Shown here in pieces: positions 225-14,598 of a DNA stretch of 64,000 nt. The notes beneath the pieces are model-generated. The model ran no database searches, had not been told where the DNA came from, and saw only the letters and a program-made list of their open reading frames with translations. The position numbers and the translations under genes were made by a program. Every line of letters begins with the position of its first letter. The stretch's first letter is position 1. The DNA is from Streptomyces misionensis. Lineage in GTDB: Bacteria; Actinomycetota; Actinomycetes; Streptomycetales; Streptomycetaceae. Location: the NCBI RefSeq assembly GCF_007896895.1, contig NZ_VOGW01000177.1, positions 10,002 to 74,001 on the forward strand, in the 5' to 3' direction.

Positions 225-1367
225 TCAGGGGCGCCAGCCGCCGTCCGGGAAGCGGACGGTGAAGGCGCCCGCGGAGAAGGAGAGGCCGAAGGCGATCGCC
301 AGCCCCTCCCCGGCCGGACGCGGGGTGTCCTCCGCGAACATCAACGGCACCGAACAGCCGAGGGTGTTGGCGTGGTCGCGCAGCACCCGGTACGACGACG
401 CCGCCTTCGCGCCGTGCGGGTCGACGCCGAACCCGGCGCACAGCGAGTCCAGGATGCGGGTGCTGCCGGTGTGCATCAGCAGCACCGACGCGTCCGCCGC
501 CGACGCCAGCGAGGAGCCCGCGAGGGCGGCCGCGGCGGTGGTGGTGGCGTAGTGGCCGCCGCGTGGGGTGACGTCGGGGGAGAGGGTGTAGAGGCGGCGG
601 CCGTGGTCGGCGATGACCACGGGGATGTCGGAGCCGCCGTCGGGGACCGTGCCCAGCTCGGTGTCCTCGGGCAGGTCGTTGGTCAGGTTGGCGACCGGCC
701 CGAACACCGGGCCCTCGCCCTCGTCGCCGAGGACCATGGCCACGGAGGCGTCGGCGAACAGGAACGAGTGCAGCGCGTCGACCGTGCGCTGCCGCTCGGC
801 GGGCGCGGTCTCGGAGAAGTGCCGGTACAGGGTGCCGTCCAGCGGCGGGGACAGCGGCGTGATGGCCTCGGTGAACACCGCGAGCACCCGGCGGCCCGGG
901 TTGGCGGTCAGGTACCAGCGGGCGGTGTCCACCACCTTGGCCATGGCCGAGCAGCCCATGTACTCGATCGCGAGGTTGGCGCAGTCGCGCGGGAGTTCGG
1001 GCATTTTGGCGATCACGTCGCACACCAGCGAGGGCAGCAGGCGGCCGGGGCTGGAGGTGACGCCGAGGACGAGCCCGATGCCGGCCGGGTCGGTGCCCGC
1101 CTTGCCGAGGGCGGCCCGCGCCGACGCGACGGCGAGGTCCGCGGTGAGGACGCCGGTCTCGGGTTCGGCGCCCTTGAAGACGACGTCGGGGTAGTTGACG
1201 AGGACCGAGTGCCGCTTGTCGATGCCCAGGGTGGTGAGCATGGCGGCGAGTCGGTCGGACATCAGGTGACGGCTGGAATCCAGGAGTTCGTCCGTGGTGA
1301 AGGCGGACGCGGGCAGTTCGGCGGCGATGCCCAGCAGGACCGGGTCGGCCTGCGCCGTGCGCGTCAC
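225..1367 (-). CDS. Thiolase-fold ketosynthase resembling type III PKS / KAS III
   Basis: A 380-residue decarboxylating or acyl-condensing ketosynthase, predicted cytosolic. The candidate nucleophile is Cys139 in EYMGCSAM, a context like the GCxAG of chalcone synthases. His299 (HTGS) and Asn334 (HANTLG) complete the Cys-His-Asn triad. The middle segment FLFADASVAMVLG matches the FGDGA region of the family. The C-terminal GFGPGL signature of type III polyketide synthases is not conserved: the segment reads AFGLSFSAG. The protein is therefore divergent and could instead be KAS III-like. The GTG start at 1367 overlaps the lyase stop by four bases (GTGA), so the two genes are translationally coupled. 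With the lyase and the acyl-CoA ligase nearby, the inferred substrate is an arylacryloyl-type thioester. That substrate is inference. Confidence 0.7.
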   Translation of the reverse strand: MTRTAQADPVLLGIAAELPASAFTTDELLDSSRHLMSDRLAAMLTTLGIDKRHSVLVNYPDVVFKGAEPETGVLTADLAVASARAALGKAGTDPAGIGLVLGVTSSPGRLLPSLVCDVIAKMPELPRDCANLAIEYMGCSAMAKVVDTARWYLTANPGRRVLAVFTEAITPLSPPLDGTLYRHFSETAPAERQRTVDALHSFLFADASVAMVLGDEGEGPVFGPVANLTNDLPEDTELGTVPDGGSDIPVVIADHGRRLYTLSPDVTPRGGHYATTTAAAALAGSSLASAADASVLLMHTGSTRILDSLCAGFGVDPHGAKAASSYRVLRDHANTLGCSVPLMFAEDTPRPAGEGLAIAFGLSFSAGAFTVRFPDGGWRP

Positions 1368-2968
1368 CGGAGTTCCCCTTCCGTGCCGGTGGCGGCCAGC
1401 AGGGCGCCCGAGCGGATGAGCGCGACGACCTCGGCGATGTCGCCGTCCATCCGCCGGTCGGCGTCCACGAACGGCACCCGCGTGCGGACCAGGGCGTGGA
1501 CGGCCCTGGTGCGCGGGGCCATCTCGGCGGTGCCGCGCAGATCGAGGGCCTGGCAGGCGGCCAGGATCTGGATCGCGGCGACCTCCTGGGTGAGTTCCAC
1601 GATGCGGCGGGCGTCGCGGGCGGCTATCGGCGCCATGGACACCTTGTCCTGGTTGTGGGCCTCGGTGGAGCGGGAGAACACGGTCGCGGGCCCGGCGTGT
1701 TTGAGCGCCTCGGCGGTCAGCGCGGAGCAGGCGATCTGCATGCCCTTGAAGCCGTGGTGCAGGCCCTTCTCCCAGGCGTCGCCCGCGGTGTGGGGGATGA
1801 GGTTCTCGGTCAGGCCGTTGTTGTACTTGGCGTCGACCAGGAGCTGGAGCTGGCGGTCCAGCAGGTCGGCGACGGAGGCGACGGCGACCTTCAGCGCGTC
1901 CATGGCCTGCACGACATGGCCGGCGTAGAAGTTCCCGCCCGAGTGCACCCGGCCGTTCTCGGCGTCGAAGAGCGGATTGTCGGTGGAGGCGTTGATCTCC
2001 GTCTCCAGCCAGCCGTCCACCCACTCGATCGTGTCCCGCAGCACCCCGGCGACATGGGGGGCGCAGCGCAGCGAGTAGCGGTCCTGGATGGAGCGCTTGA
2101 GCTTCCCGTGGCCCTTGCCGTCGAGCGGGTCGTTGGAGCCGACGACCTGGTCGTGCGGGAGGGACAGGCCGGAGCCGTCGAGGAGCCGGCCGAGGTGGGC
2201 GGCCGAGGCGAGCTGCCCGCGGTGGGGGCGCTGCTCGTGGATGAAGGAGTCGAAGTGCCCGCGGTTGCCCAGGAGGGCCTCGCTGGCCAGGGCGGTGGCG
2301 AGATCGGCGACCCGCGCGAGCTGCGCGGCGTCCTGGGTGGCGAGGACGGCGAACGCGGCCGAGAAACTGGTGCCGTTGATCAGGCCGAGGCCGTCCTTGG
2401 CCTCGGGCACGACGGGCGTGAGCCCCAGCTCCGCCAGGACGTCGGCCGCGGGCCGGACCTCGCCCCGGTACTCGACCTCGCCCTCCCCGAACAGGGTGTT
2501 GGCGACGTAGCAGAGAGGAACGAGGTCGCCGGAGGCGCCGACCGAGCCGCGCTCGGGCACCCGGGGGAGGATGTCGTGGCGCAGGAAGTCCAGCAGCAGG
2601 CCGATGACGTCCGGCTGGACGCCGGAGTTGCCGCGGGCCAGGCAGTTGGCGCGGATGAGGAGGGTGGCGCGGACGACCTCGGCCGGCGCCAGCGGACCCG
2701 TGCCGTTGAGGTGGTAGGTGACCAGGTGCCGCTGGAGTTCGGCGGCCTTCTGCGGGGCGATCTGGTTGACCACGCTGTCGCCGAAGCCGGTGGTGACGCC
2801 GTAGATCGGCTGGCCGGTGGCGATGAGGTCCAGCTTGAGGTCGCGGGAGCGCTTGACCGCCTTCTGCGCGACATCGGTGTGGACGAGGCCGAGTGCACGG
2901 CCCGGGCGGGCGACGGCCGCCACGTCGTCCAGCGTGAGGGACTTTCCGTCGATGATGACGTCCTTCAC
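1364..2968 (-). CDS. MIO-type aromatic amino acid ammonia-lyase (HAL/PAL/TAL family)
   Basis: A 534-residue lyase expected to deaminate an aromatic amino acid to the corresponding acrylate through a 4-methylidene-imidazol-5-one cofactor. The MIO triad Ala145-Ser146-Gly147 lies in GSVGASGDL. Tyr56 (YGVTTGFG), Asn198 (LINGTS), Tyr298 and Arg301 (YSLR) match catalytic positions of the family. The NQDKVSM loop lacks the extra Glu of histidase NQEDHVSM, so an aromatic rather than histidine substrate is favoured. The substrate-selecting pair aligns to Tyr85-His86, unlike His-Leu of tyrosine lyases, Phe-Leu of plant PAL or Ser-His of histidase, so specificity is open; an aminomutase role cannot be excluded. 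The GTG start at 2968 has AAAGG upstream; an upstream in-frame extension exists but has no ribosome site. Confidence 0.88.
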   Translation of the reverse strand: MKDVIIDGKSLTLDDVAAVARPGRALGLVHTDVAQKAVKRSRDLKLDLIATGQPIYGVTTGFGDSVVNQIAPQKAAELQRHLVTYHLNGTGPLAPAEVVRATLLIRANCLARGNSGVQPDVIGLLLDFLRHDILPRVPERGSVGASGDLVPLCYVANTLFGEGEVEYRGEVRPAADVLAELGLTPVVPEAKDGLGLINGTSFSAAFAVLATQDAAQLARVADLATALASEALLGNRGHFDSFIHEQRPHRGQLASAAHLGRLLDGSGLSLPHDQVVGSNDPLDGKGHGKLKRSIQDRYSLRCAPHVAGVLRDTIEWVDGWLETEINASTDNPLFDAENGRVHSGGNFYAGHVVQAMDALKVAVASVADLLDRQLQLLVDAKYNNGLTENLIPHTAGDAWEKGLHHGFKGMQIACSALTAEALKHAGPATVFSRSTEAHNQDKVSMAPIAARDARRIVELTQEVAAIQILAACQALDLRGTAEMAPRTRAVHALVRTRVPFVDADRRMDGDIAEVVALIRSGALLAATGTEGELR

Positions 2969-3195
2969 AAGGGTGCCTTTCCGCTTGCGGACACGCTGAT
3001 GAGTGCCAGGACTCAAGTGGGTGCGAACGACACTACGTTCGACCGTCGGCCGGGAGCCAACAGTGACTGCTTATCGGCCCGATAAGGGCCGGCGATCGCA
3101 TCCGGCGGCGTCATCCGCATAAGGTTCCGTATGCGCACCCGCGCCTTTCAGCGGCCCACGGAGGCCTTCATTCCTCTTGCCGACAGGGAGAACAG
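2969..3195. promoter_or_regulatory. Divergent control region with two palindromes
   Basis: This 227-bp spacer separates the leftward lyase/ketosynthase operon from the rightward reductase/ligase operon. It contains a 17-bp palindrome at 3070-3086 (CTTATCGG-C-CCGATAAG). A second inverted repeat, CGCATA-N8-TATGCG, lies at 3116-3135. They are plausible operators for the LysR or MarR regulator further right, allowing coordinate control of both arms. That assignment is inference. Confidence 0.5.
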
Positions 3196-3786
3196 GTGAC
3201 GCTCGATCATGTGACGATCGTGGGAATCGGAGGCTCCACTCGGCCCGGCTCCTCCACCGAACAGGCGCTCCGGGCAGCCCTGAAGGAGATCGAGCGGCTC
3301 GGCGCCCGCACCGTGTGCCTGAGCGGGCACGACCTCGACCTGCCCCACTACACCCCGGACGACACCGGCCACCCCCGGCGGCGGCGCCTGGTGGACCTCA
3401 TGGCCTCGGCCGACGGCCTGGTCATCGCCACCCCCGCGTACCACGGGGGCATGTCGGGCCTGGTGAAGAACGCCCTCGACCACGCAGAAGACCTCCGCCG
3501 GCGGCCGCAGCCGTACTTCAGCGCACGCCCCGTCGGCTGTCTCGCCACCGCCTACGGAGCCCAGGGGGCCGCCTCGGCGCTCGCCTCCCTGCGCGCCACC
3601 GTCCACGCGCTGCGCGGCTGGCCCACCCCGCTCGGGGTCGCCGTCGACAGCTCGCGCGTCCGCTTCGGCCCGGCCGGGGCGTGCCAGGACCCGCACACCC
3701 AGAGCCATTTGGAGATCATGGCCCGGCACATCACCGAATTCGCCGGGGTCAGGGTTCCCGGATATCGACAGGAAAAGGCATCATGA
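3196..3786 (+). CDS. NADPH-dependent FMN reductase
   Basis: A 196-residue flavodoxin-fold reductase that should make reduced FMN with NAD(P)H. The phosphate-binding loop GGSTRPGSS is near residues 11-19. The flavin-binding TPAYHGGMSGLVKNALD segment typical of the family sits near residues 77-93. The GTG start at 3196 follows GGGAGAACAG. Its stop overlaps the next gene by ATGA. The likely role is to feed reduced flavin to the acyl-CoA-dehydrogenase-fold monooxygenase at 6510-7766. That pairing is inferred from context. Confidence 0.85.
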   Translation: MTLDHVTIVGIGGSTRPGSSTEQALRAALKEIERLGARTVCLSGHDLDLPHYTPDDTGHPRRRRLVDLMASADGLVIATPAYHGGMSGLVKNALDHAEDLRRRPQPYFSARPVGCLATAYGAQGAASALASLRATVHALRGWPTPLGVAVDSSRVRFGPAGACQDPHTQSHLEIMARHITEFAGVRVPGYRQEKAS

Positions 3787-4172
3787 CGGCCAGTGAATTC
3801 GCCCCTCCGGCACAGGAAGACAAGATCGGGGGGCCGTCCACCACCGAACTCGACGGCATGTCCGTCGAATACGTGTACTCCACCGGAAACCATTACCGGA
3901 TGGAATTCGGAGCGGACACCCTCACCTTCCGCTTACTGGCGGGCTCCGCCCCGCCGCACACCGTCACCCTGCCCTACCGGGCCCGGCTGATCCGCTCCGG
4001 TCTGTATCTGGTGACCTGGACCGTCAAGCCCGGCATCCACGTCACCCTCCTCCTCGACCTCGCCGAGCGGACGATCCACGTCAGCGCGATGATGCCGCCC
4101 AACCAGTGGGAGTTCTTCGACATCGGGCGCCTGCTGTCCGTCGAGGGCCGGCCCGGGGAAGACGCCCGGTGA
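3783..4172 (+). CDS. MoaF-like / phenolic-acid-decarboxylase-like calycin protein
   Basis: A 129-residue single-domain protein of beta-strand character, resembling the MoaF-related domain and the lipocalin-like fold of bacterial phenolic acid decarboxylases. Aligned by eye to the latter, it keeps Tyr30-x-Tyr32 (EYVYSTG), Arg50 (LTFRLLAG) and the TWTVKPG.HVTLLLDL strand pair ending in PPNQW. The decarboxylase catalytic Glu appears replaced by Ser72 or Gly73. It may bind, isomerise or decarboxylate a hydroxycinnamate-type acid, or act as a cyclase or chaperone; this is inference. The ATG start overlaps the upstream stop (ATGA), and the stop overlaps the ligase start (GTGA), so all three genes are coupled. 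Confidence 0.6.
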   Translation: MTASEFAPPAQEDKIGGPSTTELDGMSVEYVYSTGNHYRMEFGADTLTFRLLAGSAPPHTVTLPYRARLIRSGLYLVTWTVKPGIHVTLLLDLAERTIHVSAMMPPNQWEFFDIGRLLSVEGRPGEDAR

Positions 4173-5647
4173 GCGACCAGGGAACCGGGAGCTGGCCGTA
4201 CCGCCGCTCCCGTATCGACCCCACCGCTCCCGCGCTCGGCGGCGACGGGGACCCGATCGGCTACGGCGAACTCGCCGCCCGCGTCGACCGGCTCGCCTCC
4301 ACGGGCATCCGGCACGGCGACCGGGTCGCCTACCTCGGCTGGAACCGGCCGGAGGCGTTCGAGCTGTTCTTCGCCGTCTGCCGCCTCGGCGCCGTGTTCG
4401 TGCCGGTCAGCCCGCGCCTGGCCTTCCCCGAACTCCTCGACGTCCTCAAGGACTGCGCCCCGGCCGCCCTGTTCCACGACGACGACCAGCGCACCACCGC
4501 CGAGGTCGCCTCGGGGGGCATCGCACTCGTCTGCGGCCCCGGCGGCCAGCACGCCATGACCGAGGCCGGGGACACCCCGCCGCGCCGCGACGTCACCCTG
4601 GAGGACCCCGCCGTCATCCTCTACACCAGCGGCACCACCGGCATGCCCAAGGGCGCCGTCCTCTCCCACGGCAGCCTGCTCTTCAACACCGTCAACCAAC
4701 TCGCCCACGTCGACGTCCTGTCCACCGACCGGGCGCTGGTCATCGCCCCCCTCTTCCACGCCACCGGGCTCGGACAGGTCGGCCTGCCCACCCTGTTCAA
4801 GGGCGGCAGCCTGCTGGTCCAGCGGTTCTCGGCCGGCAAGGCGCTGAAGACCATCGAGGAGCGGCGGATCACCGCGTTCACGGCCGTGCCGACCATGCTG
4901 CGGATGATGAGCGCCGACCCCGCCTTCGAGAAGGCGGACCTGTCCGCGCTGCGCTACGTCGTCCACGGCGGCTCCCCGGCCGACCCGCGGGTGGTCGACG
5001 CCTGGCGGGCCAAGGGCGTCACCCTCCTCCAGGGCTACGGCATGACCGAGGCCGCCCCGGGCGTCACCCTCGCCACGGAGCGCACGGCGGCCGCCGAGCC
5101 CCGGTCCGCGGGCGTCCCGCACTTCTTCACCGACCTGAGCGTGCGCACCGCCCGGGGCGGGGCGGGCGAGCTGTGGGTGCGCGGCCCGCACCTGTTCACC
5201 GGCTACCACGGACAGCCCGAGGCGACCGCCGAGGCCATGGACGACGGCTGGTTCCGAACCGGCGACGCGGTGCGCCTGGAGAACGGCCAGGTGTACGTGG
5301 TCGACCGGGTCAAGGACATGTTCATCTCGGGCGGCGAGAACGTGTACCCGGCCGAGGTCGAGGCCCGTCTCGACGCCCTGGAAGGGGTCCGGGAGAGCGT
5401 CGTGGTCGGTGTGGACGACGCCGAGTGGGGGCAGGTCGGGGCCGCCTTCGTCGTCCTGGAGGAGGGCGCCCGGCTGACCGGGGAGCAGATCAGGGAGCGG
5501 CTGCGCGGCGAGCTGGCCGCGTTCAAGGTGCCCCGGTCGGTGCGCTTCGTGCCCCGGCTGCCGCGCACCCCCACCGGGAAGATCCGGCGCACCGACCTCG
5601 TCGCCCGGCTGGCGCGTGAGGCGCCGTCGGACACGTCGGACACCTGA
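4169..5647 (+). CDS. Acyl-CoA ligase (ANL superfamily)
   Basis: A 492-residue AMP-forming ligase that activates a carboxylic acid as an acyl-adenylate and then a CoA thioester. The phosphate loop YTSGTTGMPKG lies near residue 152. GYGMTEA, the GDAVRL aspartate motif, and the hinge DRVKDMFISGGENVYP follow. The catalytic lysine is in PRTPTGKIRRTDL near the C-terminus. The length fits 4-coumarate/fatty acid CoA ligases. It is the third gene of the reductase operon and ends before a bidirectional terminator. In context it probably activates the acid made by the lyase; the exact acid cannot be read from sequence. Confidence 0.88.
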   Translation: MSDQGTGSWPYRRSRIDPTAPALGGDGDPIGYGELAARVDRLASTGIRHGDRVAYLGWNRPEAFELFFAVCRLGAVFVPVSPRLAFPELLDVLKDCAPAALFHDDDQRTTAEVASGGIALVCGPGGQHAMTEAGDTPPRRDVTLEDPAVILYTSGTTGMPKGAVLSHGSLLFNTVNQLAHVDVLSTDRALVIAPLFHATGLGQVGLPTLFKGGSLLVQRFSAGKALKTIEERRITAFTAVPTMLRMMSADPAFEKADLSALRYVVHGGSPADPRVVDAWRAKGVTLLQGYGMTEAAPGVTLATERTAAAEPRSAGVPHFFTDLSVRTARGGAGELWVRGPHLFTGYHGQPEATAEAMDDGWFRTGDAVRLENGQVYVVDRVKDMFISGGENVYPAEVEARLDALEGVRESVVVGVDDAEWGQVGAAFVVLEEGARLTGEQIRERLRGELAAFKVPRSVRFVPRLPRTPTGKIRRTDLVARLAREAPSDTSDT

Positions 5648-5709: not shown

Positions 5710-6513
5710 TCAGGGACGGCGTCCCGCGACGGTCCAGTGCCTGTGCACCAGGGCCTGCCGCTCCACCTCGTCGGCGAGGGCGAGCGCCAGGTCCGGCAGG
5801 TCGATCCCGGCCGGCACGCCCTGGTCGAACAGCATGAAGTCGACGCCCAGGCGGTAGTCGCCCGTCCCCGGGCCGGGCCGGTACAGCCACGGCGGCGACA
5901 GGAACGACCAGCGCAGGTCGCGCCGGTGCTCGAACAGGTCCAGGGCGATCCGGCAGCCCTCCAGGAGCGGCACGCGGCTCCAGTTCCCGACCCGCTCCTC
6001 CAGCTCGGGATCGGTCGCCCCCGCAGGTATCGCGCCGCTCAGCTTGCGGCGGGCGGCCTCGTGGAAGAACGACTCCTTGGTGATCTCGCCCAGCCAGGTG
6101 AGGTGCTCGGCGGGCATCACGCCGAAGTACCAGGAGGGGAACCGGGGATCGTCGAACATCTGGAGCCCGGGCTCGACGTACAGGCTGGCCGCGCCGCCGA
6201 CGTACATCAGGTAGCCGGCGCCGGAGCGGACATGCGCCTGGAGGATGCGCCGGGTGCCCTCGGCCTGCCGGTAGTAGACCTCCAGATCGACCTCGTGGCC
6301 GCCGGAGAAGCACGAGACGACGACGTCGTGCCCGCGCAGCCGCTCGGTGAGGGCCGGTACGTCGAACACGTCGCAGGCGGCCTCGGCGAGCTGCCCGGCG
6401 GGCCCGGCGAGCCGGCCGCGGGAGACCCCGGTGACCCGGTGCCCGCGGCGCAGCAGCACCTCGGTCAGGGCCCGGCCGGTCATCCCGGTGTGCCCGATCA
6501 CGGCGACCTTCAC
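5710..6513 (-). CDS. NmrA/isoflavone-reductase-like NAD(P)-dependent oxidoreductase
   Basis: A 267-residue short-chain dehydrogenase-fold protein with an N-terminal Rossmann dinucleotide loop, VIGHTGMTGRALTE, at residues 5-18. It lacks the classical YxxxK pair in the expected place, and the overall pattern is NmrA/atypical SDR. The GTG start at 6513 overlaps the upstream monooxygenase stop (GTGA), so the two are co-translated. In the cluster it could reduce a keto or enoyl intermediate. A purely structural or redox-sensing NmrA role is also possible. Confidence 0.75.
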   Translation of the reverse strand: MKVAVIGHTGMTGRALTEVLLRRGHRVTGVSRGRLAGPAGQLAEAACDVFDVPALTERLRGHDVVVSCFSGGHEVDLEVYYRQAEGTRRILQAHVRSGAGYLMYVGGAASLYVEPGLQMFDDPRFPSWYFGVMPAEHLTWLGEITKESFFHEAARRKLSGAIPAGATDPELEERVGNWSRVPLLEGCRIALDLFEHRRDLRWSFLSPPWLYRPGPGTGDYRLGVDFMLFDQGVPAGIDLPDLALALADEVERQALVHRHWTVAGRRP

Positions 6514-7766
6514 GGCGCCTCCTCCCCGGCGGCCGGGAGGGACACGGCGAGGGCGGGGTTGACGGGGTTCGGCGGCTCGCCCCCCAGGGCGATGACCCCG
6601 GCCATCTGGAGCACGGCGTCCTGCGCGACGGCGTGCTGGCACATGGTGGTGACGTCCCGCAGCCAGCGGTCCAGCGGGCTCGTGCGGTAGACCGCCGAGC
6701 CGCCGACGAGGTCGTACAGCCGCTGGACGATCCGCCGGGCGGTCTGGAAGGCGTACGTGCGCGCCAGCGCGGTGCCGACGCGCGCGGCCCGCAGATCGCC
6801 GCCGCCGGAGTCGAGCAGCTCCCACTGGACGCGCAGCGTCTCGTAGACGCCGGCCCGGGCGGCGGCCAGCTCCATCTCGCTGCGGCCGATCGCCTCGTGC
6901 ACCCGCGGATCGTCGAGCCAGGGGACGCCGGTCTCCCGGTCGCGGCGGCCGTCCGCGAGGCCGATGACATGGTCGAGGGCGGCGCGGGCCAGGCCGAGCG
7001 GGATGCCGGGCATCTTGCGCTGCACCGCGTCCGGGGTGCGCAGCAGGACGCGGTCCCGGCGGGGCCGGGCGAGCGTGAAGACGTGGTCGTTGGGGACGAA
7101 CAGGTCCTCGGTCCGGTAGTCGTGGCTGCCGGAACCGGCCAGCCCGGTGGTGTGCCAGGTGTCGAGGACCTCGAACTGCTCGGGGCGGGCGGCGAAGACC
7201 CGCCACTGCCGGGGCTCGCCGGTCAGCGGGTCCGGCACGGGCCGCCCCCGCTCCTGGACCGTGCAGGAGGCCATGAGCACCTGGCAGTGGCTGACGCAGG
7301 AGGCGAACCGCCACCTGCCGCCGATCCGGTAGCCGCCGTCCGTCTTCTCGGCGGTGCCGGTCGGCAGCAGCGCCCCCGCGGTGATCGTGTCCAGGTCCGC
7401 GTACAGGGTGCGGGCCGTCGCGTCCGGCAGGTAGCCGGCGTAGATGCCGGAGTCCATGCCGATCATCGCGCACCAGGCGGCCGAGGCGTCGCCCTGGGCG
7501 AGGATCTCCAGCAGCCGCGCCTGCTGCGCGGAGGTGAGGTCGGGGCCGCCCCGGTCGGCGGGCATGGCCGCCCGCCACACCCCCGCCCCCCGGAGCAGCT
7601 CGACGACGTGGTCGGGCAGCCGGCGCCCCTCCTCGATCTCGTCGGCGGCCCGCCGCAGCCACGGCACGGTCCGCCGGGCCCGGTCGAGGACGTCGGCCGC
7701 CGAGGCGGGCGGGGTGTCCCAGGGCGGTGGTGCGGCGCTGTCCGTGCGGGTCTCGGTGACGGTCAT
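6510..7766 (-). CDS. Acyl-CoA-dehydrogenase-fold flavin monooxygenase (HsaA type)
   Basis: A 418-residue group D flavoprotein. It has the acyl-CoA dehydrogenase layout: N-terminal helices, a beta domain with GGRWRFASCVSHC and TGLAGSGSHDY, and a C-terminal helical domain with YDLVGGSAVYRTSPLDRWLRD. The dehydrogenase catalytic base is not evident. The GSGSHDY and GGSAVYxTSPLxRxxRD features resemble HsaA, dibenzothiophene and related aromatic hydroxylases that use reduced FMN or FAD. The FMN reductase at 3196 is the natural partner. The predicted job is ring or side-chain hydroxylation of the lyase-derived acid or the final product (inference). The start is ATG at 7766. Confidence 0.78.
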   Translation of the reverse strand: MTVTETRTDSAAPPPWDTPPASAADVLDRARRTVPWLRRAADEIEEGRRLPDHVVELLRGAGVWRAAMPADRGGPDLTSAQQARLLEILAQGDASAAWCAMIGMDSGIYAGYLPDATARTLYADLDTITAGALLPTGTAEKTDGGYRIGGRWRFASCVSHCQVLMASCTVQERGRPVPDPLTGEPRQWRVFAARPEQFEVLDTWHTTGLAGSGSHDYRTEDLFVPNDHVFTLARPRRDRVLLRTPDAVQRKMPGIPLGLARAALDHVIGLADGRRDRETGVPWLDDPRVHEAIGRSEMELAAARAGVYETLRVQWELLDSGGGDLRAARVGTALARTYAFQTARRIVQRLYDLVGGSAVYRTSPLDRWLRDVTTMCQHAVAQDAVLQMAGVIALGGEPPNPVNPALAVSLPAAGEEAP

Positions 7767-7808: not shown

Positions 7809-9077
7809 TCAGTGCACGGTGGCGGCGCTCTGCGGCGCCTGCCCGCCGAGGACGGTGTTCTCGCCGTGGCGCTGCCACGGACGGGCGATGAGGACGAGGC
7901 ACAGGAACGCGCACCCGAACCCGATGACCATCAGGGCGGCCATGGGCTTGTCGCTGCCGGTGCCCAGCGCGCCGACGACGGGCGCGGCGATGCCGCCGAA
8001 GAGGCACTGCCCGGCGCCGATGACGCCCGAGGCGGCGCCGCCGGCCCGGCGGCCGATCTCCTGGCCGATGGTCATGATGGAGGGGATGGTCAGCCCCATC
8101 GCGAACATGCACAGGAACATGAAGACCAGCGAGGTGGTCAGGGTGTTGCCCGCGGTCACGGCGACGATCGCGTGGCCGGCCGAGGCCACCAGGCCGACGG
8201 TGACGCCGATGGTGAGCAGCCGGTTCAGCCCGGCCTTGGCGGCGAGGTTGCCGACCATCGCGCCGCCGATCAGGATGCCGACCGCGGTGACCGCGAAGGA
8301 CAGGCTGTACTTGGTCGCCGACAGCTTGTAGACGTCCTGGAAGACGAAGCTGGAGCCGGAGATGTACGAGAACAGGGCGACGTTGGCGAAGGAGAACACC
8401 AGTACGTAGCCGAGGAACGGGCGCTCGGCGAGCAGGCCCCGCATGGACCGGAACGCCGTCGCGACGCCGCCGGAGTGGCGCCGCTCGGGCGGGAGGGACT
8501 CCGGCAGGGCGGCGGCGACCGCGATCAGCAGGACCACGCTGAGGGCGGCCAGGACGACGAACAGGGCCCGCCAGGAGAAGACGTTGGTGATCAGACCGCC
8601 GAGCACGGGCGCGATGATCGGGGCCACGGCGAAGATGACCGACAGGATCGAGAACCGCTTCGCCGCCTCCTGGCCCCGGTACCAGTCGCCGACCACGGCG
8701 CGGGCGAGGACCATGCCGGCCGAGCCGGAGACGCCCTCCAGGACGCGGGCCGCATTCAGCAGTTCCGTGCTGGTGGCGACGGCACACAGCACCGAGAACA
8801 CGGCGAACAGCGCGGAGCCCCACATCAGCAGCCTGCGGCGGCCGGTGGAGTCGCTGACCGGGCCGATCAGGAGCTGTCCGACCAGCATGCCCAGCAGGTA
8901 GGCCGTCAGGCTCAGCTGGATGCTGGAATCGGCGGCGTGCAGGTCGCGGCCCATGTCCGGGAACGCCGGTAAGAGCATGTCGGTGGCCAGGGGAGTGATC
9001 GCGGTCAGCGACGCCAGCAGCAGGATCACGGCCCCGCCCCGGGCCGGAGGCGTGCCGTGGAGCGGACGAGCTTGCAT
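7809..9077 (-). CDS. Bcr/CflA-family MFS efflux transporter
   Basis: A 422-residue major facilitator with about 12 hydrophobic segments. Motif A is GQLLIGPVSDSTGRRRLL after the second helix, and DMLLPAFPDMGRDL follows TM1, both typical of the Bcr/CflA drug resistance subfamily (proton-coupled export). It lies 42 bp downstream of the monooxygenase start on the same strand and diverges from the MarR gene. It is probably the product exporter or self-resistance pump of the island. Confidence 0.87.
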   Translation of the reverse strand: MQARPLHGTPPARGGAVILLLASLTAITPLATDMLLPAFPDMGRDLHAADSSIQLSLTAYLLGMLVGQLLIGPVSDSTGRRRLLMWGSALFAVFSVLCAVATSTELLNAARVLEGVSGSAGMVLARAVVGDWYRGQEAAKRFSILSVIFAVAPIIAPVLGGLITNVFSWRALFVVLAALSVVLLIAVAAALPESLPPERRHSGGVATAFRSMRGLLAERPFLGYVLVFSFANVALFSYISGSSFVFQDVYKLSATKYSLSFAVTAVGILIGGAMVGNLAAKAGLNRLLTIGVTVGLVASAGHAIVAVTAGNTLTTSLVFMFLCMFAMGLTIPSIMTIGQEIGRRAGGAASGVIGAGQCLFGGIAAPVVGALGTGSDKPMAALMVIGFGCAFLCLVLIARPWQRHGENTVLGGQAPQSAATVH

Positions 9078-9185
9078 CCGACGAGCCTTTCGTGGTGTGG
9101 GTTGCCGGTCCCGCGGGCCGCCGGTTCTCGGTCGGCCCCGAGATAGTTACACTATGGTTCAGTGATTAACAATATGGAGGTCTCT
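9078..9185. promoter_or_regulatory. Divergent MFS/MarR promoter region
   Basis: This 108-bp spacer has an AT-rich core at about 9143-9173, unusual in this GC-rich window. An imperfect inverted repeat, GTTACACT followed by AGTGATTAAC, lies across it and is a plausible MarR operator. GGAGG at 9176-9180 is the ribosome site for the MarR start at 9186. Confidence 0.5.
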
Positions 9186-9707
9186 GTGATCCCGTCCACC
9201 CCCAGCGACCAAGTCACCCTGTGGTGGCGGCAGGCCCGTCCGGATCTCGACACCCATTCCATGGATGTCTTCGGACGCCTGCGCCGCCTCCAGGTCCTGG
9301 TGGAACTGGAGGCCTCCACGACCCTCGCCGGAGTCCAGCTCACCTCGAGCGAACTCGACGTGATGGTCACCCTGCGGCACGCCGACACACCGCTCATCGC
9401 CCGCAACATCGCCGCCCTGCGCGGCTGTTCGCGCGCCGCGATGAGCAACATCCTCGCCAAGATGGAGAAGCGCGGCCTCGTCGTGCGGGAGCCCAACCCC
9501 GCCGACCGCCGCGCCGTCCTGGTGCGCCTCACCGACGCCGGGGAGCAGCTGACGGATACCGTCTTCCCCAAGCGCCTCGCCCTGGAGGCGGACCTTCTCT
9601 CCCAGCTTTCCGAAGCCGAGCAGCACCAGGTCGCCGACGCCCTGGACCTGCTCGTGAACGCGATGCTGCGCCGTTCACCGCTGCCTCCGGACCCGGAGGC
9701 GGTCTAG
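9186..9707 (+). CDS. MarR-family transcriptional regulator
   Basis: A 173-residue winged-helix regulator. The recognition region NIAALRGCSRAAMSNILAKMEKRGLV and the wing REPNPADRRAVLVRLTDAG are typical. The GTG at 9186 is chosen because GGAGG lies five bases upstream. An upstream GTG (9162) and ATG (9174) overlap that ribosome site. It is divergent from the Bcr/CflA pump, which it most likely represses, with a phenolic or cluster-related ligand (inference). Confidence 0.85.
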   Translation: MIPSTPSDQVTLWWRQARPDLDTHSMDVFGRLRRLQVLVELEASTTLAGVQLTSSELDVMVTLRHADTPLIARNIAALRGCSRAAMSNILAKMEKRGLVVREPNPADRRAVLVRLTDAGEQLTDTVFPKRLALEADLLSQLSEAEQHQVADALDLLVNAMLRRSPLPPDPEAV

Positions 9708-9717
9708 GTACGCAGAC

Positions 9718-9745
9718 GGCGGCGCCCCCCTGGCGGGGTGCCGCC
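9718..9745 (+). terminator. Hairpin terminator after marR
   Basis: An 11-bp stem (GGCGGCGCCCC against GGGGTGCCGCC, one wobble) with a 6-base loop, 10 bases after the MarR stop. Confidence 0.6.
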
Positions 9746-9776
9746 TCTGACGCAACAGCACAACGGGGGAAACACT

Positions 9777-10676
9777 GTGCGACGCGATCTCGACATACGT
9801 CCGTTACGCACGCTCGTCACCATCGTGGACGTCGGAGGCTTCCGCCGGGCCTCCCGGGTCCTCAGCATCTCCCAGCCCGCGGTCAGCCAGCACATCCGCC
9901 GCCTGGACGCCCTGATCGGGGAGCCCGTCTTCCGCGAGACCGGACCGAGCCTGGTCCTGTCCGCCGGCGGCGAGGAACTGCTGCGCTTCGCCCGTCAGCT
10001 CGTGCGCACCAACGACGAACTCGTCACCCGGCTGTCCGCCCACCGCTCCACCGGACGCCTGGCGCTCGGCGTCTGCGAGACCCTGGTCGGCGTGATCCCG
10101 ACCCTGCTCGCCGAGCTGAAGGCCCATGTCTCCCTGGTGGACACGAGCGTGCTCGCGGGACCGGGCGACGAGCTGACCGACCAGCTCGCCGAGGGTGCCA
10201 TCGACATGCTCCTCAAGGTCGGGGAGCCCGGCAAGGACGCGGACCGGGTCATCGGCGCCATCGAGTGCGCCTGGTTCGGCGAGAGGGCCCTGCTCGACGA
10301 CGCCTCCCTGCCCCTCGCCGTCTTCGCGGGCCGCACCACGCCGCTGCGGCAGCTCGCCGAGGAGACCCTCACCTGCGCGTCCCGCCCCTGGCACGTGGTC
10401 TACAAGGGGGTCGGCGTGGAGGACGTCGTCGGCGTCTGCCGGTCCGGCGTCGGCGTCAGCCTGCTGTTCGCCGCGGCCGAGGACCGCTGGAACCTGCCCG
10501 TCGTCCCGCGTGGGCGGCTGCCCGAGCCCGCCCGGCATCTGCCGGTGATCGTCGCCGCGGGGCCGCGGCTCGCGCCCGGGCTCGCCGGCCAGGCGCGGGA
10601 GGCCGTCGAGGAGGCGATGGGCGACTACACCTGCACGGCCGCGGAACCGGGCCACATGGCCAGGCGGGCGTCCTGA
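9777..10676 (+). CDS. LysR-family transcriptional regulator
   Basis: A 299-residue LysR-type regulator. The N-terminal helix-turn-helix is FRRASRVLSISQPAVSQHIRRLDALIGEPVFRE (quoted here only as a motif at residues ~23-55), followed by an effector-binding domain. The GTG start at 9777 has GGGGGA upstream. It is the last gene of the island and converges on nucS with a 7-bp gap. It is the best candidate activator of the lyase and reductase operons, whose shared spacer carries palindromes. Confidence 0.85.
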   Translation: MRRDLDIRPLRTLVTIVDVGGFRRASRVLSISQPAVSQHIRRLDALIGEPVFRETGPSLVLSAGGEELLRFARQLVRTNDELVTRLSAHRSTGRLALGVCETLVGVIPTLLAELKAHVSLVDTSVLAGPGDELTDQLAEGAIDMLLKVGEPGKDADRVIGAIECAWFGERALLDDASLPLAVFAGRTTPLRQLAEETLTCASRPWHVVYKGVGVEDVVGVCRSGVGVSLLFAAAEDRWNLPVVPRGRLPEPARHLPVIVAAGPRLAPGLAGQAREAVEEAMGDYTCTAAEPGHMARRAS

Positions 10677-11355: not shown

Positions 11356-11641
11356 GGTCCGCAACGCTACTCGACACCCGTCGCCCCACGCGATTCGCAG
11401 GTCCCGCCGGTAGCGGATCGCCCCACTTGCCCCTGCTTTGTCCCTGGAAACTCTTGTTCGTCCTTGGCCGATTGTGGGCACAACCCGACCGTTCCATATA
11501 CCCATTCTGGTGGTGTGGTCACCGACCGTTGCCTACCGTAGGAACGGGAGGTCGCGGTCCATGTACTCAGCGTGTTTGACGGCCGAACTCCCTTTGTCCG
11601 TCCGGCAACCCCTGTTCATCGGGGGTGCGAGAGGAGAACCC

Positions 11642-12034
11642 ATGTCGCTCGACGTCTCACCGGCCCTACTCGAAGCGGCCGAGCGAGGCGAGGTCGACGA
11701 AGCAGAATTCGTCGACTGCGTCCGGACCTCCCTGCCCTACGCGTGGGAGATGATCAGCTCCCTGGTGGCCCAGCTGAAGGTGGACGGCGGGCCCTTCGCC
11801 GACAACCAGACGCCGCCGCCGGACGAGCAGGCGCGCGGCCAGTTGCTGCGTGCGCTCGCCAGTGACGCCATCCGCGGCGCGCTGCAACGGCACTTCGGTG
11901 TGCGGCTTGCCTTCCAGAACTGCCACCGGGTGGCGGTGTTCCCGCTGGACCCCTCGGTGGACGAGAGGCTGGCCCGGTTCACCTCGGTGCGGGCCCAGCT
12001 GCTCAACCAGTCGCCGGAACTCCGGGACTGCTGA
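11642..12034 (+). CDS. Conserved Streptomyces protein of unknown function
   Basis: A 130-residue acidic soluble protein starting MSLDVSPALLEAAERGEVDE. No catalytic motif was recognised. A two-cysteine pattern (FVDCVRTS, FQNCHRV, terminal RDC) is noted. GAGAGGAGAACCC is a strong ribosome site before the ATG at 11642. It follows nucS divergently and has a close homologue in the same position in S. coelicolor, by memory. Confidence 0.8.
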   Translation: MSLDVSPALLEAAERGEVDEAEFVDCVRTSLPYAWEMISSLVAQLKVDGGPFADNQTPPPDEQARGQLLRALASDAIRGALQRHFGVRLAFQNCHRVAVFPLDPSVDERLARFTSVRAQLLNQSPELRDC

Positions 12035-13404: not shown

Positions 13405-13737
13405 GTGTCCCCGCGCCGCAACCGACCGAAGGCCGCCGGCTCGTCCGGCCCCAGCGCCGAGGACGACCGCACCGGCCGGTACGGCGGCTTCCAGTCCACG
13501 GAGCGCTGGCAGGGCGAGGAGTGGAGCGTGCGCCATGTCGCGGGCGCGAGCGCCGAGGGCAAGACCTACCGCTGCCCCGGCTGCGACCAGCTGATCCCCT
13601 CCGCCGTCCCGCACGTGGTCGCCTGGCCCGACCACGCGGGCGTGGACGACCGCCGCCACTGGCACAAGGCCTGCTGGAACGCGAAGGACCGCCGCACCAC
13701 GCGGGTGCAGCGGTCCCGTAACGCGCCGAGGTTCTAG
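13405..13737 (+). CDS. Small putative zinc-binding protein
   Basis: A 110-residue basic protein. A likely zinc site is formed by CPGC (YRCPGCDQLIP) and the later HWHKACW, with His in VPHVVAW. The N-terminus is Arg/Lys-rich, suggesting nucleic acid contact. Homologues are often labelled ATP/GTP-binding without any P-loop; none is visible here. The GTG start at 13405 follows GAGAGG. Confidence 0.75.
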   Translation: MSPRRNRPKAAGSSGPSAEDDRTGRYGGFQSTERWQGEEWSVRHVAGASAEGKTYRCPGCDQLIPSAVPHVVAWPDHAGVDDRRHWHKACWNAKDRRTTRVQRSRNAPRF

Positions 13738-13755
13738 CGTTCCGGCGGGCGGGGC

Positions 13756-14598
13756 TCAGACGTCCCGGGCGCGCAGCAGGGCGTACGCGCCGGCGCCGGC
13801 CACCGCGGTCAGCCCCAGCATGATCCACAGCGGGTCCCAGCCGGTGGGTCCGGAGCTGCTGATGGCGTTGTCGTAGAAGACGCTGAGCTGGCTCGGGAAC
13901 GAGTACTCGAACAGGAAGTTGCGCACCGAGCGCAGCGAGTCCGTGGCCATGAACAGCGCGAGCACCAGCGGGGCGAGCACCAGGCCGATCATGATGGTGA
14001 TGCCGCCCGCGGAGTGCCGGATCATGGAGCCGACCAGCAGCGCGAGCAGACCGAGCAGGGCGATGTAGAGGCTGACGCCGAGGGTGGCCTTGGCCCAGTC
14101 CCCGCCCGAGGGCGTGCGCGCGCCGCTGCCGGACAGCATGGACGCCTGGACCATGGCCACGAAGGTGGTCGACACCAGGGTCACGACGAAGGCGACCACG
14201 AAGAACACGATCGCCTTGGCGGCCAGCACCCGGCCCCGGCTCGGGCACGCCGTCATCGTCGTACGGATCATCCCGGTGCCGTACTCCGACGCGGTGGTCA
14301 GCACGCCCAGGGTGATGACGCACATATTGCCGACGAGCAGCCCGAAGAACCCGAAGGAGAGCGGGTTGGTGCCGTGCAGCGAGGCCTCGTCGGTGTTCTC
14401 GCTCACCAGCGCCCCGGCCAGCAGGCCGATGCCGACGACCAGGACCACGAAGACGCCGAGCGTCCAGATCGTGGAGCGGACGGACCTGATCTTCGTCCAC
14501 TCGGAGGTCACCGCGTGCCCCAGGTGCGTGCGCACGACGGGGATCGGCGAGGTGTAGCCGGGGTACGAGCCGCCGTGCGCCGCCTGCCGGTCGGGCGC
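13756..14598 (-). pseudogene. ABC transporter permease lacking its 5' end
   Basis: About 280 codons of an ABC-2-type permease, with about six hydrophobic segments from WTLGVFVVLVVGIGLLAG to the terminal LLRARDV. The retained N-terminal tail (QAAHGGSYPGYTSPIP) and SEWTKIRSVRSTIWTLG are typical of Streptomyces ABC-2 permeases paired with an ATPase. The reading frame runs without a start straight into filP sequence in another frame at about 14591-14598. The GTG in PVVRTHLG is a possible internal restart without a clear ribosome site. The ATPase expected beside it is absent. This is a truncation, deletion or assembly collapse. Confidence 0.75.

Follow-up and report, generated by a model that had tools for sequence, protein, structure and literature searches.

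A phenolic acid decarboxylase/MoaF-type barrel with an altered pocket in a probable tyrosine-derived product cluster of Streptomyces misionensis

P0001, a protein encoded in a 64,000-nucleotide stretch of Streptomyces misionensis DNA (contig NZ_VOGW01000177.1, positions 10,002 to 74,001; hereafter the window), keeps the phenol-holding tyrosine pair of the phenolic acid decarboxylases (PADs) but has lost their acid–base glutamate and an arginine, indicating either a changed reaction or pure binding. From its predicted fold, its residue differences and its conserved cluster, we tentatively infer that P0001 is a non-decarboxylating MoaF/PAD barrel, for which we propose a reaction, the steering of isomerisation, cyclisation or dehydration, and a substrate, a hydroxycinnamoyl-derived intermediate. 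The gene lies in a cluster of ten (Table 1) that probably makes a tyrosine-derived compound.

Table 1 Genes of the cluster, with positions in the window
Feature	Position	Strand	Basis
KAS III / type III PKS-like condensing enzyme P0003	225-1367	-	weak family scores; Cys-His-Asn aligned
Aromatic amino acid ammonia-lyase	1364-3016	-	best NCBIfam model BagA/FevW; ASG motif
NADPH-dependent FMN reductase (PF03358)	3196-3786	+	Pfam
MoaF/PAD-fold protein P0001, 129 aa	3783-4172	+	ORF, Pfam, fold, alignments
Acyl/aryl-CoA ligase (PF00501 + PF13193)	4169-5647	+	Pfam
NAD(P)-binding SDR/NmrA-like reductase	5710-6513	-	domain match
Acyl-CoA-dehydrogenase-fold flavin monooxygenase	6510-7766	-	closest solved relative Rv3094c
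Bcr/CflA-family MFS exporter	7809-9077	-	family match
MarR-family regulator	9162-9707	+	family match
LysR-family regulator	9738-10676	+	family match

The P0001 reading frame is a genuine gene. The sequence ATGA at 3783–3786 holds both its start codon and the stop codon of the FMN reductase gene, and GTGA at 4169–4172 holds its stop codon and the GTG start of the CoA ligase gene; these 4-bp overlaps bear out the coupling on both sides that the initial annotation of this DNA had described. Among 392 genomes of the genus, 8 gave any match to P0001 at E 1e-3, and three carry true orthologues, namely the source genome, G612 (96%) and G632 (78%); matches in the remaining five were partial, at 30–45%. 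The overlap with the ligase gene is kept at 3/3 orthologous loci and that with the reductase gene at 2/3, G632 having a 45-bp gap instead. Both G612 and G632 contain all ten cluster genes in the same order, with P0001 placed each time between the genes for the FMN reductase and the ligase. The 96% DNA similarity to G612 extends beyond the LysR gene as far as the fetched sequence reaches, and similarity to G632 is confined to the cluster. The dN/dS of P0001 was 0.36 against G632 (0.16–0.59 for the other nine cluster genes) and 0.52 against G612, a value that rests on few changes and is the highest of the ten (others 0.02–0.45). Given the orthologous position in 3/3 clusters and the dN/dS against G632, the presence of P0001 is more than chance.

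The three genus genomes with P0001 orthologues, of the 392 searched, are also those with orthologues of the KS-like P0003; matches in 24 others reached at most 32% identity. In the family sample, P0001 and P0003 were each found in the source genome only (1/297 in both cases), as was the profile of the three P0001 orthologues in the order sample (1/313); these two samples and the genus set were drawn with genomes in common and are not independent. No close relative of P0001 was confirmed among 40 pattern-matched stretches of genome contigs, a plasmid search found neither P0001 nor P0003, viral contigs searched with PAD and MoaF_like queries gave no match, and PADLOC gave no match for five cluster proteins.

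The neighbouring genes fit a pathway that starts from tyrosine. The best model listed for the lyase, which starts at GTG 2968 or TTG 3016, is the BagA/FevW tyrosine ammonia-lyase NF041222, at 852.5 bits and under the cut-off of 1000. Among solved relatives, Rv3094c is closest to the flavin monooxygenase (E 4.7e-62); HsaA-type enzymes and XiaF are more distant. P0003 is very divergent, with identities of 32% or less outside its own orthologues in the 392 genus genomes, and sequence scores are weak both for KAS III and for type III PKS. Its Cys, His and Asn align with those of solved type III PKS relatives, at what are presumably the catalytic positions, and are kept in G632. The G632 cluster contains an additional prephenate dehydrogenase gene between the SDR and ligase genes (L142:6833-8044), which fits tyrosine use and would raise tyrosine supply.

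Pfam searches placed P0001 above the curated cut-offs of MoaF_like (PF22036; 38.7 bits against 27, E 9.6e-10) and MoaF (PF10703; 27.8 bits against 23.3) and below that of PA_decarbox (PF05870; 15.1 bits against 24.6), and an NCBIfam search returned zero matches at E 0.01. The closest solved structures by sequence are PADs, with 8a85 at E 6.3e-5 for P0001 and at E 2.7e-5 for the three-orthologue profile. An AlphaFold2 model of P0001 from its single sequence has eight strands and a mean pLDDT of 78.5, averaging 85–92 per ten-residue block across residues 21–100 and less in residues 1–20 (52 and 49), 101–110 (63) and 121–129 (65); by contrast, a single-sequence model of P0003 had a mean pLDDT of 37.8 and was unusable. 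Foldseek searches with the P0001 model returned PADs, MoaF (4q51) and 5hal in the top 27 rows, from E 2.6e-6 for the best match, 8a85, to 2.6e-4, followed by a designed barrel at E 1.8e-3. VIA-align gave Z 13.8 for 4q51 (rmsd 4.2, 118 aligned), 13.6 for the PAD 2gc9 (rmsd 3.6, 105 aligned) and 13.5 for 5hal (rmsd 3.0, 100 aligned), the last probably a PF22036 member, given its match to the profile; the first chain outside these groups was 5jk2, at Z 9.0. Because these matches head both rankings, the predicted PAD/MoaF calycin-type barrel is well supported, in line with the calycin fold proposed earlier from the letters of the sequence. Lower-scoring entries in the fold lists include ligand-binding barrels, among them fatty-acid-binding proteins and avidins. 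To our knowledge, little has been established about the function of MoaF_like barrels.

For the PADs, the accessible text of PMC13358373 names Tyr19, Tyr21, Arg49 and Glu72 as essential and describes Glu72 as the general acid–base and the twin tyrosines as forming the oxyanion hole that accommodates the phenolic oxygen. The Enterobacter PAD 4uu3 carries these four residues at identical numbers, and its HMMER alignment with P0001 was used for pocket mapping. In this alignment, Y19 and Y21 correspond to Y30 and Y32 of P0001 (motif Y30-V-Y32), R49 to H59 and E72 to V81; among other positions, Y27 matches Y38, W70 matches W79, I41 corresponds to L51, L80 to L89 and I93 to A102, and H99 of P0001 likewise matches the PAD. 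Residues Y30, Y32, Y38, H59, W79, V81 and A102 are identical in 3/3 orthologues. Thus, the Tyr-x-Tyr motif and the missing catalytic glutamate that the initial annotation had pointed out are both confirmed in all three cluster-bearing genomes, and the pocket residues it had asked to see compared are conserved there; its claim that the catalytic arginine is kept failed, as H59 occupies the Arg49 position. R50, the arginine of the PAD-like motif, was considered as the catalytic arginine and rejected: it aligns with PAD Arg40, lies at opposite strand parity to L51 (PAD Ile41) and is His in G632, the most divergent orthologue. Arg40 is absent from the four residues named essential in the accessible part of PMC13358373.

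These pocket features set the cluster proteins apart from their relatives. In a non-random sample of 53 distinct homologous segments from the fetched loci, the 50 that lie outside the cluster are all acidic at the Glu72 column, 48 with Glu and 2 with Asp, whereas the 3/3 cluster members have Val there; Y-x-Y occurs in five segments, two canonical PADs and the three cluster members. This bears on whether P0001 might be an ordinary MoaF_like protein that serves some housekeeping or stress function unrelated to the cluster and lies there by chance. Such proteins are common, with PF22036 matched at E 0.001 in 93 of the 297 family-sample genomes (113 rows), but we regard this explanation as very improbable given the difference from the 50 other homologues at the acidic position, the confinement of the P0001 orthologues found to the cluster (3/3) and the 4-bp overlaps that set the gene in the operon.

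At the PAD Ile93 position, P0001 naturally has Ala102. According to the accessible text of PMC13358373, most of the volume gained by the pocket in an engineered triple variant of PAD N31 that was better on sinapic acid came from Ile93Ala, and an analogous change in Bacillus pumilus PAD raised activity on this bulkier substrate, but PAD N31 with Ile93Ala alone was inactive; for this reason, Ala102 by itself is no argument for a new substrate. Comparison of P0001 with the G632 orthologue revealed two fully identical blocks, residues 54–69 (16/16) and 99–113 (15/15), the latter partly within the low-confidence stretch 101–110 of the model (mean pLDDT 63). The N-terminal stretch 6–23 is nearly invariant (16/18), and residues 24–53 (19/30) and the tail 114–129 (4/16) are less conserved. 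Changes affect 4/22 inward and 6/23 outward positions, no clear difference where inward is assigned by strand parity only; the case for pocket conservation therefore rests on the named residues and the blocks.

With Val81 in place of the acid–base Glu, His59 in place of the Arg and Ala102 where the PADs have a pocket Ile, P0001 would not be expected to eject CO2, and a canonical decarboxylase was discarded as the best reading, two of the four essential residues being different in 3/3 orthologues. A decarboxylase with a changed substrate, for example a beta-keto acid released by the KS-like enzyme, or one acting on p-coumarate through another acid such as His59, would account for the retained phenol-binding tyrosines, and a related lyase locus (L060) does have a canonical PAD beside the lyase. 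We nevertheless consider it unlikely: PAD Glu and Arg are reported as essential (PMC13358373, accessible text), and the PA_decarbox score of P0001 falls under the cut-off (15.1 versus 24.6). Moreover, the host genome has a canonical PAD by sequence on another contig (L035:4694-5578, minus strand), and the operon's own acyl/aryl-CoA ligase would draw on the same free acid; both speak against p-coumarate decarboxylation being the task of P0001.

A second alternative is that P0001 is a non-catalytic binder or escort whose task is to sequester a hydroxycinnamoyl intermediate that is reactive or toxic, or else to stabilise the flavin reductase or the ligase. The absence of two of four catalytic residues, the presence of ligand-binding barrels lower in the fold lists and the coupling to both the reductase and ligase genes agree with such a role; however, the reductase coupling is lost in G632, and the two invariant blocks, one of them containing H59, together with the near-invariant N-terminal stretch seem to exceed the needs of simple hydrophobic binding. 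We judge a binder somewhat doubtful and, guided by the invariant His59 and the invariant blocks, favour catalysis over both binding and decarboxylation.

The preferred reading, a non-decarboxylating catalyst, would place P0001 in the following sequence of steps. The lyase would convert tyrosine to p-coumarate, in an order that we infer from the gene content, and the flavin monooxygenase, served by the FMN reductase of the cluster, may hydroxylate it. The ligase would turn the acid into its CoA ester, which the KS/type III-like enzyme would extend or couple. P0001 would act beside or after the ligase and the KS, on a larger intermediate, with Tyr30 and Tyr32 holding the para-phenol as in the PADs and His59 as the most likely acid/base. 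The repurposed pocket beside aryl-acrylate enzymes that was suggested at the outset thus stands as the best reading, on the predicted fold and on residues shared 3/3, its role being a proposal. A narrower version, in which P0001 is a dedicated cyclase or isomerase of phenylpropanoid–polyketide intermediates with the tyrosine pair kept, Val and His substituted for Glu and Arg, and Ala102 giving a wider pocket, is less likely than not. The computed mechanism for promiscuous hydration by PADs also uses the glutamate, according to the accessible text of PMC10116590, and so no demonstrated Glu-less reaction of the PAD fold can be named. A literature search that mostly covered papers outside subscription, and is therefore weak, had among the matches listed neither a natural-product enzyme with a MoaF/PAD-type barrel nor a description of a cluster of such make-up; a chromomycin match was due to PadR, and a nocamycin match came from a reference list only.

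Related lyase loci were compared using the best 80 of 92 relatives. By tblastn at 1e-4, none of the 80 contains relatives of P0001, P0003 or P0006; the monooxygenase has relatives in L090 (52%), which also has a relative of the FMN reductase (55%), and in L054 (48%), and the LysR regulator has one in L053 (48%). L053 also contains the closest lyase found (76%), and Pfam assigned families to 4 of the 10 ORFs around it (AMP-binding, luciferase-like monooxygenase, MFS and PaaX), with no barrel among the ten. A profile search detected the PAD/MoaF fold at two of the 80 loci, L057 and L060, against 0.07 expected (P about 0.002), which is weak evidence for an association: the expectation assumes 8.4 Mb per genome and a rate derived from the 113 rows for the window's own family, the two counts used different profiles, the loci were the top 80 of 92 relatives and both hits are from Amycolatopsis. 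L057, from Amycolatopsis decaplanina, has a gene of the tyrosine ammonia-lyase type that overlaps the first of two MoaF_like genes; next come a BBE-type oxidase, the other MoaF_like gene and a P450. The two MoaF_like genes (11605-11943 and 13649-13957) flank the oxidase, and both barrels have Asp at the PAD Glu column and are without Y-x-Y. At L060 (Amycolatopsis sp. GM8), a canonical PAD (9444-9983) immediately precedes a lyase of 65% identity, and the two are likely a vinylphenol-making pair.

The fold and superfamily of P0001 are already known, and its residue set and cluster setting appear to be new within the literature search. If the preferred reading is true, a cofactor-free decarboxylase pocket has become another catalyst through two or three residue changes with the phenol-binding pair kept, and P0001 would be, within the same search, the first non-decarboxylase natural-product catalyst on the phenolic acid decarboxylase scaffold. 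It would also make MoaF_like barrels possible pathway proteins and offer a concrete cluster, in three genomes, for testing the repurposing of the PAD fold. The small cluster itself, probably for a tyrosine-derived product, had no description in the literature searched.

Compared with PAD/PadC (PF05870; 8a85, 4uu3, 2gc9, 2p8g), P0001 shares the barrel, the twin tyrosines and the matches at Y38, W79 and H99, but differs at Arg49 (His59), Glu72 (Val81) and Ile93 (Ala102), in its PA_decarbox score under the cut-off and in length, at 129 residues against 158–194 for the PAD chains listed. It resembles MoaF_like and MoaF (PF22036 and PF10703; 5hal and 4q51) in passing both cut-offs and in its structural matches (Z 13.5–13.8), whereas the 48 non-PAD homologues outside the cluster have Y-x-Y in 0/48 and Glu or Asp in 48/48, and P0001 combines Y-x-Y with Val. 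Lipocalin-type Diels-Alderases (PyrI4, AbyU and Tsn11) provide a precedent for single-domain barrels as natural-product cyclases in the accessible text of PMC8159843; they are absent among the fold matches listed, which does not argue against a common fold, and no sequence relationship to P0001 is shown. According to a title cited in that accessible text (PMC8159843), PyrI4 has an N-terminal lid, to which the conserved N-terminal stretch 6–23 of P0001 (pLDDT 52 and 49 over residues 1–20 of the model) offers an analogy only. In gene content, the cluster is like those of ferroverdin and bagremycin (fev/bag) in its BagA/FevW-type lyase (852.5 bits), and ORF1 of fev is a prephenate dehydrogenase according to the accessible text of PMC6692506, an enzyme that the G632 cluster also has. 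The same text proposes that a UbiX/UbiD pair decarboxylates p-coumarate in the bagremycin and ferroverdin pathways (PMC6692506); neither is among the ten genes described here, which instead contain a KS-like enzyme and the P0001 barrel.
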